This document shows positions 28,461 to 32,645 of a stretch of DNA of 49,194 nt, in pieces. The notes under the pieces were generated by a model. That model did no database searches, was not told the DNA's origin, and saw nothing but the letters and a program-made list of their open reading frames with translations. The DNA is from Leptolyngbya sp. Heron Island J (GTDB taxonomy: Bacteria > Cyanobacteriota > Cyanobacteriia > Phormidesmidales > Phormidesmidaceae): contig NZ_AWNH01000094.1 of the NCBI RefSeq assembly GCF_000482245.1, positions 1 through 49,194 on the forward strand. Reading direction: 5' to 3'. The position numbers and the translations under genes were made by a program. Every line of letters begins with the position of its first letter. The stretch's first letter is position 1.

Positions 28461-29168
28461 ATGAGAATTTTATTGGTTGATGATGAGGTGGAGCTGACTG
28501 AACCGCTGAGTCGGGTGCTACAGCGGGAGGGCTATAACGTCAAGATAGCCCATGATGGAGAGACAGGCTATAAACTGGCGGTTGATGGTGAGTTTGACTT
28601 GCTGATTCTGGATTGGATGATGCCAGGACTTAGCGGGTTAGAGATGTGTCGAAAGTTGAGAGAGCACCACCTCACCACTCCAGTGCTTTTTCTCACTGCC
28701 AAAGACACCCTCGATGATCGAGTAGAAGGTCTGGATGCCGGTGCAGATGACTATCTGGTCAAACCCTTTGAACTGCGAGAGCTATTAGCTCGGGTGCGGG
28801 CACTATTGCGGCGTCCACCGATTCGAGAAGAGGTTCCAACAACAATACTGCAGTATCGAGACTTAACCCTGGATAGCGCTAACCAAATTGCTAAGCGGGG
28901 TGGTGATATCCTGCCTGAACGAACGATCGAGCTATCAGAAAAAGAATCTCAGATTCTTAGCTATCTGATGCAATATCCGGATCAGCTGCTTACCCATCAG
29001 CAAATTTACGATACTGTCTGGGGTACGAGTGCGCAGCCCAGCAGTAATGCTCTGGCGGCTCAGATGCGTTTGTTGCGGCGAAAAGTTGAGCATAACGGCG
29101 AGACAACTTTAATCCATACGGTTTATGGCAAAGGTTATCGGTTTGGGTCACCGTCGGAGTCTGTGTAA
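28461..29168 (+). CDS. OmpR-family response regulator, RppA-like
   Basis: 235 residues. The receiver domain has the acidic pair DD (7-8), phospho-acceptor Asp51 (LILDWMMPG), a conserved Thr (FLTAKD) and Lys (LVKPFE). It is followed by an OmpR/PhoB winged-helix DNA-binding domain (LSEKESQILSYLM, VYGKGYRF). It resembles RppA/NblR-type cyanobacterial regulators, but no sensor kinase gene is adjacent, so it is an orphan here. A 203-bp leader with one HIP1 site separates it from bciA. Confidence 0.9.
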   Translation: MRILLVDDEVELTEPLSRVLQREGYNVKIAHDGETGYKLAVDGEFDLLILDWMMPGLSGLEMCRKLREHHLTTPVLFLTAKDTLDDRVEGLDAGADDYLVKPFELRELLARVRALLRRPPIREEVPTTILQYRDLTLDSANQIAKRGGDILPERTIELSEKESQILSYLMQYPDQLLTHQQIYDTVWGTSAQPSSNALAAQMRLLRRKVEHNGETTLIHTVYGKGYRFGSPSESV

Positions 29169-31389: not shown

Positions 31390-31719
31390 TTATTCAGCTG
31401 TGGGCATGTCCTCGCCATGGTCCATGCCGCCGTGACCACTGTGATCCATCATCAGCTCCATACTAGATGGACCCGCTGCCTTGATCCCCATGGATACCAA
31501 TCCAGACGTTAACAAGCCCATAGATACTAGACCTGTAGAAAGTACGCCCATGGAAATGAGACCGATGGAGACGATGCCATGGGCAATGACGCCAATGGAA
31601 ATGACCCCATGAGCGGAGACCCCGACCGCAATGAAGCCATGAGCACCAATACCCATTGAGAAGAACTTCTTTTTCTTGGGAGGGCTTAAAGGCTGTGTAC
31701 TGGTAGAACTGTCTATCAC
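31390..31719 (-). CDS. Glycine-periodic repeat protein with His/Met-rich tail
   Basis: 109 residues. A basic N-terminus (KKKK at 15-18) is followed by a region in which Gly occurs at every fifth position from 23 to 83 (13 glycines). Read as 10-residue units, the residue before alternate glycines is His at 27, 37 and 47 (AHG) and then Met at 57, 67 and 77 (SMG). The tail has MELMMDHSGHGGMDHGEDM. The regular hydrophobic-hydrophobic-small-x-Gly pattern suggests a solenoid or membrane-inserted stack; the tail suggests copper or other metal binding (inference). The start is GTG at 31719, since a stop lies two codons upstream. I do not recognise a named family. Confidence 0.72.
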   Translation of the reverse strand: MIDSSTSTQPLSPPKKKKFFSMGIGAHGFIAVGVSAHGVISIGVIAHGIVSIGLISMGVLSTGLVSMGLLTSGLVSMGIKAAGPSSMELMMDHSGHGGMDHGEDMPTAE

Positions 31720-31811: not shown

Positions 31812-32645
31812 TCAACCCTTTACGCCACTGCTGGTTTCGCTAGGAACGATATAGCGCTGCATAATTACAAAGAAGAGCAAAATCGGAGCTGTAGCGATGA
31901 CAGAGCCTGCTGCAATTAAGCGCCAATCGAGGGAAAAACTGCCAGCTAAGCGGGCGACACCTAGGGGCAGGGTGTAATATTCAGGCCGGTTGAGTACCAA
32001 TAGCGGCCAGAGAAAATCGCTCCAGGAGCCGATAAAAACAAAAATGGCCAGGGTGACCAGGGCCGGACGCACCGACGGAATCATGATGTGCCACCAGATG
32101 CCTAATTCTGAGCAACCATCAATCCGTGAAGCTTCTTCGAGTTCTTTGGGGACATTTTGAAAAGCCTGACGCATCAGAAAAATGCCAAATGCGGAGGCAA
32201 TCGATGGAAAAATAACCCCTAGATAGCTGTTGGTAAGACCCAGCTGTACGGTGAGGATGTACAGCGGAATCATCACGATTTGAAATGGAATGAGAATTGT
32301 GGTGACTATCAGTGAAAAGAGCAGCTCACGTCCGCGAAAGGTCAGTCTGGCTAAGGGATAGGCGGCCAGGGAACAGAACGTCAGATTCAGCACTACCGTA
32401 ATGACAGCGATCAGGGTGCTGTTGAAAAAGTAACGACCAAAGGGATTGGTCTGCCAGACGTTGACAAAGTTGCTAAAGGTGGGCTGCTGGGGGATAAACC
32501 GGGGTGGAAATTCAAAGATGTTTTCGGTGCCTGATTTGAAGGCGGTGCTGATTAGCCAGAGGAGGGGGAGCAGCATTGAGATCGCAATTCCCCCTAAAAG
32601 CGCGTACGTTAGCACCACTTCCCACCAACGCTTTTGCTTCAGCAT
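31812..32645 (-). CDS. Sugar ABC transporter permease, MalG/UgpE type
   Basis: 277 residues, six predicted transmembrane helices, and the cytoplasmic EAA loop EEASRIDGCSELGIWWHIMIPSVRP cut as EEASRIDGC near 160 that docks with the ATPase. FEFPPRFIPQQPTFSNF in the first periplasmic loop is typical of carbohydrate-uptake CUT1 permeases. No partner permease, binding protein or ATPase gene is adjacent in the window, so the substrate is unknown and the other subunits must be encoded elsewhere. It lies 10 bp after the Tab2 gene. Confidence 0.88.
   Translation of the reverse strand: MLKQKRWWEVVLTYALLGGIAISMLLPLLWLISTAFKSGTENIFEFPPRFIPQQPTFSNFVNVWQTNPFGRYFFNSTLIAVITVVLNLTFCSLAAYPLARLTFRGRELLFSLIVTTILIPFQIVMIPLYILTVQLGLTNSYLGVIFPSIASAFGIFLMRQAFQNVPKELEEASRIDGCSELGIWWHIMIPSVRPALVTLAIFVFIGSWSDFLWPLLVLNRPEYYTLPLGVARLAGSFSLDWRLIAAGSVIATAPILLFFVIMQRYIVPSETSSGVKG

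Follow-up and report, generated by a model that had tools for sequence, protein, structure and literature searches.

The window, a stretch of 49,194 nucleotides of contig NZ_AWNH01000094.1 of Leptolyngbya sp. Heron Island J, carries on its minus strand (31390..31719) a gene that starts with GTG and encodes a protein of 109 amino acid residues; its open reading frame, purifying selection and homologues all mark it as a gene. Residues 23–83 (31471..31653, minus strand), delimited from the sequence and the alignments, form an array with the repeat unit G-[ILV]-[ILV]-[SAT]-x, in which glycine recurs at every fifth position (23, 28, 33, 38, 43, 48, 53, 58, 63, 68, 73, 78 and 83); further glycines are found at residue 25 and, four of them, in the tail. 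In a register of 10 residues, the position preceding a glycine is His at residues 27, 37 and 47 and Met at residues 57, 67 and 77 (31489..31641, minus strand; traced in the core alignment described below). The array is flanked on the N-terminal side by a Lys-rich segment (KKKK, residues 15–18; 31666..31677, minus strand; seen in both alignments) and on the C-terminal side by a His/Met-rich tail (residues 80–109; 31393..31482, minus strand) with three His and five Met among the last 30 residues. The preliminary description of this DNA had noted the unbroken glycine period, the His-then-Met order and the rich tail, and the translated reading frame bears out all three; the column even reaches one step past M77, as Met87 continues the same register.

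The longest run of glycines at a spacing of five comprises 13 residues, compared with a maximum of 7 in 100,000 shuffles. With the glycine lattice kept in place and the rest of the core shuffled, none of 200,000 shuffles placed His or Met at all six named positions, and two of the 200,000 gathered at least six His or Met residues in any single 10-residue phase. The dN/dS ratio of the gene is 0.04–0.07 against three congeners (L007, L010 and L014), on which this estimate rests, with dN of 0.07–0.12 and dS of 1.6–1.9, the latter being near saturation; dS for two further relatives (L008 and L018) was not computable. Purifying selection acts on the open reading frame in the window, which is a genuine gene and no shadow frame.

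A Gly-five pattern alone is no evidence of a gene; GLTT-like open reading frames also arise as shadow frames. The weak matches on another contig of the same genome (C15, L003:1273-1782) proved to be a shadow frame within a gene for pentapeptide repeats, and a match on a viral contig (L160:5001-5264), the one that was translated out of four such matches, the other three having the same score, a shadow frame of a PVDTTP-type repeat gene. Region L028 was dropped as a Leu-Ser-Leu-Gly frame. Two further regions (L025:1507-1806 and L027:56-403) encode another Gly-five family, with FSxG units behind a hydrophobic N-terminus; they have no His/Met column and were also dropped.

Upstream of the array gene, 92 bp away and on the same minus strand (31812..32645), lies a permease-like gene, which by its look we take to encode an ABC-type permease. 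Judging from gene order, it keeps its place in L007, L009 and L010; a shared operon is unproven. An RppA-type response regulator is encoded on the plus strand (28461..29168; NF041734, 266 bits against a cut-off of 250) and is found near the array gene in the same three regions, and a further neighbour looks like a PhzF-type gene. There is no copper gene among the neighbours of the array copy in the window.

A family of small proteins with a conserved His/Met column

Matches at an E-value of 1e-6 or better were found in 15 of 59 genomes of relatives, the genome of the window included; one of the 15 (G009, region L025) has the different Gly-five family mentioned above. Within the genus, seven of eight genomes, again counting that of the window, encode a homologue, and the exception is a genome that is 75% complete. 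Across the phylum, 89 of 386 sampled genomes match the array at 1e-8; by manual count, 54 of these belong to a small-genome family, f2, and 35 lie outside it. A scan of named genomes with the single protein returned five close relatives, assigned to Leptolyngbya, Leptolyngbyaceae, Adonisia and an uncultured cyanobacterium, and a tblastn search of phage records with an f2 member (L045) gave no match. NCBIfam has no model that names the family: a pyrophosphatase model was matched by 2 of 36 full-length rows at 0.0035, which we attribute to chance, and sequence matches in the PDB to IcmE/DotG (2.9e-5) were taken to reflect a common repeat period. A search of open-access PMC articles on DUF3721, the GLTT repeat and methionine-rich or beta-helix proteins returned no paper on such a family. 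The family is conserved and unnamed, with an architecture that we rate as categorically new and a function that we infer.

Two alignments were used. The core alignment (A2) has 54 rows, the window protein and 53 of 60 non-redundant cores; the seven left out are L059, with a frame that stops near residue 68, L125, L138, L139 and L152, which display the L-M-M-M-M-M pattern, L137, which has that pattern and Ala in place of Gly28, and L143. The full-length alignment (A1) has 36 rows, the window protein and 35 of 42 non-duplicate proteins, and leaves out L009, L023 (truncated), L025, L027, L047, L049 and L052.

In the core alignment, positions 37 and 47 admit no third residue besides Met and His (33 Met and 21 His at position 37, 34 Met and 20 His at position 47). 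Met is found in all 54 rows at positions 57 and 77 and in 53 at position 67, where the single Cys belongs to a short paralogue (L076). Position 27 is His or Met in only 20 of the 54 rows, the others having mostly Leu, so that the first rung is not a general feature; the column described from the window protein is accordingly retained in its homologues from rung 37 to rung 77, and variable at its start. The patterns are HHHMMM in 18 rows, SHHMMM in two and HHMMMM in one, the remainder having no His, and within residues 27–77 a Met preceding a His was never found. The half-way columns (32, 42 and 52) are always occupied by Ile, Val, Leu or Phe. Beyond the core, position 87 is His in two rows. 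Six further array regions (L082, L091, L132, L149, L151 and L153) also keep His or Met from the second to the sixth rung.

A second short array protein occurs in f2 (L076:6460-6663, L077:6654-6905 and L107:6413-6607; also in L082 and L151), in which the first rung is Arg and, in some cases, one Met is replaced by Cys.

On a tree inferred with the six columns excluded, the minimum numbers of changes at positions 37, 47, 57, 67 and 77 are 1, 2, 0, 1 and 0, respectively, and the exchanges of His for Met amount to few events. On the same tree, 15 of the 22 aliphatic columns between residues 24 and 79 need 8–19 changes. The aliphatic columns with fewer are 24 and 32 (five), 42 (two), 45 (seven), 49 and 55 (four) and 65 (none), and some small-residue columns are also low, with one change at 36, two each at 51 and 61, and three at 26. 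Val65 (31525-31527 in the window) is invariant across all 54 rows, unlike most of the remaining aliphatic positions, which exchange.

As judged from these alignments, no part of the family is better conserved than the His/Met column together with the glycine lattice. Such constancy is not unique to the column: Val65, position 36, Ile42 and Ser51 (two changes each) and position 61 appear equally constant and are not ligands. The manner of exchange is more telling. Met at the retained rungs is never replaced by Leu, Ile or Val, although packing alone would permit that, and His exchanges only with Met at positions 37 and 47, a behaviour that resembles that of metal ligands and points to such a role.

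Core composition, predicted fold and known repeat families

Residues 30–73 (31501..31632, minus strand), a putative membrane-embedded core, are free of Asp, Glu, Lys and Arg throughout the 54 rows, and the mean Kyte–Doolittle hydropathy over 19 residues reaches 1.93; at residues 74–75 there are six charged residues across the 54 rows. Ahead of the array, Lys is found at position 16 in 35 rows and at position 18 in 42, and the 12 residues preceding the array carry a net positive charge in 35 of the 36 full-length rows. In all 36 full-length rows, the segment that starts at G23 and ends at residue 79 comprises 57 or 58 residues, so by alignment the length of the array is nearly fixed, and all 36 have a tail with at least three His or Met residues. 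Deviations are a one-residue insertion at His27-Gly28 in six rows of the core alignment and the protein of L143, outside both alignments, which is shorter by one pentapeptide and in which the strict 10-residue phase is broken at the first repeat. Judged on composition, then, the protein combines the charge-free hydrophobic span and the positive-inside flank of an integral membrane protein; spans of near-fixed length that lack charge and have one positive side are characteristic of membrane segments, and the protein is probably inserted.

The AlphaFold2 models of the whole protein (from the 36 full-length rows) and of the core (from the 54 rows) are both of low confidence (pLDDT 49.5 and 53.5, respectively) and show a similar all-beta pattern; the strands of the first model comprise residues 30–35, 39–45, 49–55, 59–65 and 71–75. 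Since both models are all-beta and break at every x-[His/Met]-Gly, a 10-residue structural unit is favoured. At pLDDT values below 55, the predicted ligands may lie on one face, as the preliminary description envisaged for a solenoid (in coils of 10 residues), on two faces (in coils of 20 residues) or along the two edges of a meander. VIA-align comparison of the first, low-confidence model gave a best Z-score of 5.0; the matches, all at Z 5.0 or less, are to what we take to be largely antiparallel sheets, and an antiparallel meander would place the ligands on its two edges in turn. Foldseek found no match for the second, equally low-confidence model at an E-value of 0.001 or better. A helical reading was rejected, as periods of 5 and 10 miss a single helix face and neither of the low-confidence models contains a helix.

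Among known families close to it, the GLTT repeat of Pfam (PF01744) scores 50.6 bits with the window protein against a cut-off of 21 and is matched by all 36 full-length rows at an E-value of 0.01. What the two have in common is the Gly-pentapeptide repeat; the PF01744 model describes a five-residue repeat only and has neither the 10-residue His/Met register nor the charge-free core and its flanks. The GLTT repeat originates from nematode proteins and its name implies a Gly-Leu-Thr-Thr unit, whereas Thr-Thr is absent from the window protein. As the match reflects a common period, we do not count the window protein as a functional member of that family. Pentapeptide-repeat proteins (PF00805, PF01469) likewise have the period of five but a different repeat consensus; the window protein scores 15.3 bits with Pentapeptide_2 (PF01469), under the cut-off of 26.4, and 5 of the 36 full-length rows give weak matches. 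By description only, the array may be likened to the midge antifreeze protein, a solenoid of 10-residue coils with a Gly at every fifth residue and a stacked ladder of side chains, which is a secreted, disulphide-bonded, ice-binding protein.

Gene neighbourhoods in relatives

Gene neighbourhoods were surveyed in 93 regions with a recognised array, a set that does not include the six further regions listed above. In five of these (L057, L061, L063, L065 and L086), from four genera, the array gene is followed directly and on the same strand by a gene for a BlaI-type regulator and then by a metalloprotease-like gene. The regulator of L057 matches Penicillinase_R at 7.7e-29. The assignment of the protease is weaker: M48 matches are at 30 bits against a cut-off of 20.3 in L057 and in L156, the protease-like copy in the genome of the window, no family was matched in L061, and M56 stays below its cut-off in L156. 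The pair looks like PetR/PetP, with the identity of the PetP-like protease weakly supported by these scores. PetR, a BlaI-like factor, and PetP, a BlaR1-like protease, switch between plastocyanin and cytochrome c6 with copper, and the copper-regulated PetRP set is reported to include two proteins of unknown function (PMC7896320).

A petR-like regulator was found at 1e-15 in 109 of the 386 genomes, as a single copy in 107. By eye, 31 of the 35 array genomes outside f2 have this gene, which lies beside the array in only four of them, and none of the 54 f2 array genomes has a match at this threshold. In the window genome the array gene is on contig C94 and the petR-petP-like pair on contig C106; there the array gene is no operon partner of the pair.

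For comparison with controls, 20 loci were chosen manually from 19 genera that do not belong to f2 (two of the loci from G371) and set against 20 control regions from array-bearing genomes, 11 of which are the genomes of the case loci. Penicillinase_R and response regulators are the most frequent neighbour families of the case loci, the former being found beside 4 of 20 loci, i.e. in 4 of the 80 neighbours within two genes (Pfam). It is absent among the 25 families, out of 137, listed for the 80 control neighbours, and BLAST detected a petR-like regulator in none of the 20 control regions. In a broader BLAST comparison, a reference gene was found in 9 of 19 case regions (8 if the Zn/Cd-type ATPase is set aside) versus 4 of 20 controls, the control matches being to two P-type ATPases, one Fur and one DUF92 gene; 10 of the 19 case regions had no reference gene at all. 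We give this comparison little weight because it is biased, the references having been drawn from seven of the nine matching case regions.

Several neighbourhoods contain genes of copper metabolism. In L056 and L098, which belong to one genus, a cytochrome c6-like gene immediately precedes the array gene on its upstream side and a CopC-CopD gene lies two genes away; the former scores 118 bits with the PetJ model in L056, below the cut-off of 135. A cytochrome c6-like gene is found on the opposite side of the array gene in L062. Within four genes of the array gene, L055 and L097, also from a single genus, encode DUF411, a multicopper oxidase and a copper ATPase (CopA; TIGR01511, 656 bits against a cut-off of 397 in L055). 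In L067 an apparent RND metal pump, as we read it, lies four genes away. Other metals are represented as well, by a Zn/Cd-type ATPase beside the array gene of L059, an ABC-3 permease and a Fur-family regulator in L106 and a HupE/UreJ gene in L105. A Fur-like gene occurs within two genes of the array in 19 of the 93 regions, all from f2. A CopY-like operator (TACANNTGTA and three variants) was found upstream of array genes in 0 of 94 stretches, compared with 0 to 3 in shuffled stretches. The preliminary suggestion of a metal, probably copper, thus draws support from the gene neighbourhoods of some relatives, whereas many others have no copper gene adjacent.

Two side observations concern these regions. 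In L056, a 237-codon open reading frame (L056:5332-6042; 237 aa) lies between the array gene and CopC-CopD. In L059, the array gene (L059:5993-6172), which stops near residue 68 and is possibly frameshifted or a broken copy, adjoins genes for a Zn/Cd-type ATPase and a Met-rich protein.

In f2, the array is fused to DUF3721 (PF12518), which was matched behind the array in 9 of the 36 full-length rows; these nine f2 rows also have a Cys ahead of the array, in an HCG motif. DUF3721 was found in 56 of the 386 genomes, all of them in f2, and comparison of the lists by eye indicates that all 54 f2 array genomes carry it; the other two (G320 and G387) have DUF3721 and no array match at 1e-8. The window genome has no DUF3721 match at an E-value of 0.001 with the same model that matches those 56 genomes in the other search. 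A DUF3721-like gene adjoins the array gene in 22 of the 93 regions, and beyond it, in L077, L079, L106, L115 and L143, there is a gene for a secreted-looking protein whose start is rich in His and Met; for the one such protein tested (L077), Pfam named no family. The resulting cluster (L077:4497-6428, and likewise in the other four regions) comprises the secreted-looking protein, a lipoprotein-like DUF3721 protein with a His-rich tail, and the array-DUF3721 fusion, and looks like a trans-envelope metal route. Stand-alone DUF3721 proteins often begin, by their look, like lipoproteins, which would place DUF3721 outside the cytosol, where the reading proposed below puts the tail of the array.

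Proposed copper handling and its alternatives

Our preferred, tentative reading, to which we assign a probability of about 0.42, is that the array gene encodes a small membrane-embedded protein that handles Cu(I) by relaying it along the His/Met sites. That the protein binds a soft metal in one way or another, be it copper or a different one, appears likelier than this. The charge-free Gly-pentapeptide array, paired into 10-residue beta-type repeats, would sit in the plasma or thylakoid membrane, with the Lys-rich N-terminus in the cytosol and the His/Met-rich tail (in f2, DUF3721) reaching into the periplasm or lumen. Every 10 residues would contribute a single ligand, His (as many as three) at the end facing the cytosol and Met toward the lumen, and the column would provide a chain of Cu(I) sites along which copper could be handed by ligand exchange. 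Membrane insertion, copper binding, relay and direction are all features that we infer, and the inward direction is a guess by analogy, since Ctr1 has a comparable order of sites.

In Ctr1, Met layers lie outside and an HCH motif inside, and replacing Met with Leu abolishes transport (PMC6437178). If the copper reading is right, the likeness would extend to ordered outer Met sites, His/Cys ligands at the cytosolic end and a metal-binding outer tail (PMC6437178). Ctr1 forms a helical homotrimer whose TM2 carries an MX3M motif, whereas the array protein is a Gly repeat with a beta prediction; its array, with a Met spacing of 10, contains no M-x-x-x-M, the only one being in the tail (M87 to M91). 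No Ctr family is among the Pfam matches of the window protein, and we see no homology to Ctr1.

A more specific form of the relay, a transmembrane beta-solenoid importer acting as a "copper wire", is unlikely in our estimate. Six or seven coils of 10 residues would span some 30 angstroms, beta-solenoids being spaced at roughly 4.8 angstroms a coil, with hydrophobic side chains turned to the lipid, backbone hydrogen bonds running between coils, and a line of Met and then His carrying Cu(I) from the periplasm or lumen to the cytosol. In f2 the metal would pass from a barrel-like protein with the His/Met-rich start to the DUF3721 lipoprotein and on to the array-DUF3721 fusion. To our knowledge, there is no example of a transmembrane beta-solenoid of this kind.

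Three explanations compete with the membrane relay. The array and its tail might merely hold Cu(I) at the membrane, as a buffer or sensor accessory for a PetP-like protease or a lumenal cuproprotein, which is how the order of array, regulator and protease genes in 5 of 93 regions, the copper response reported for PetR/PetP (PMC7896320) and the His/Met-rich tails of all 36 full-length rows could be read. Yet 27 of the 31 non-f2 genomes that have both genes, that of the window included, keep them apart, the 54 f2 array genomes lack a petR-like match at 1e-15 (by eye), and a buffer would need neither a near-fixed length nor a strict His-then-Met order, so we hold such a role to be possible if rather improbable. 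A soluble or peripheral beta-solenoid, akin to pentapeptide-repeat proteins and carrying its copper ladder outside the membrane, is unlikely: it would suit the Gly-pentapeptide period, the small residue two before most glycines, the beta prediction (pLDDT 49.5 and 53.5) and the weak Pentapeptide_2 matches in 5 of 36 rows, but fits poorly with a core that has no charged residue at 30–73 in 54 sequences and with a length near-fixed in 36 of 36, since soluble repeat proteins usually vary in length.

Conservation of the rungs need not, in itself, mean a metal. In a hydrophobic membrane protein the Met and His residues could be structural turn residues, or the Met residues an oxidant sink; they do sit at the turns predicted by the low-confidence models, and the constant Val65 and the low-change positions 36, 42, 51 and 61 illustrate strict conservation of other kinds. 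Turn formation or packing would, however, poorly explain why positions 37 and 47 accept His or Met only and why Met to Cys is the sole change seen at 57, 67 and 77 in the core alignment, and it leaves aside the His/Met-rich tails and the copper-gene neighbours, where present. A protein with no metal function is therefore quite improbable in our view, and the membrane-embedded Cu(I) relay remains our preferred reading.

The question of how copper enters cyanobacterial cells gives this family its interest. According to a 2025 review, CtaA is the only well-characterised dedicated copper importer, there are proposals that CtaA in fact exports, and FutABC and the zinc or manganese ABC transporters are listed as other copper routes (PMC12292863); another review calls for an additional copper import system in Synechocystis (PMC4284471). 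Should the solenoid importer be true, cyanobacteria would have in it their missing copper importer, and an array that is a membrane solenoid would represent a new way of building an ion path. Conserved, unnamed, endowed with an ordered His/Met column and, in some genomes, located near copper genes, the array family is a concrete candidate for copper handling that could help to explain how copper moves in photosynthetic cyanobacterial cells.
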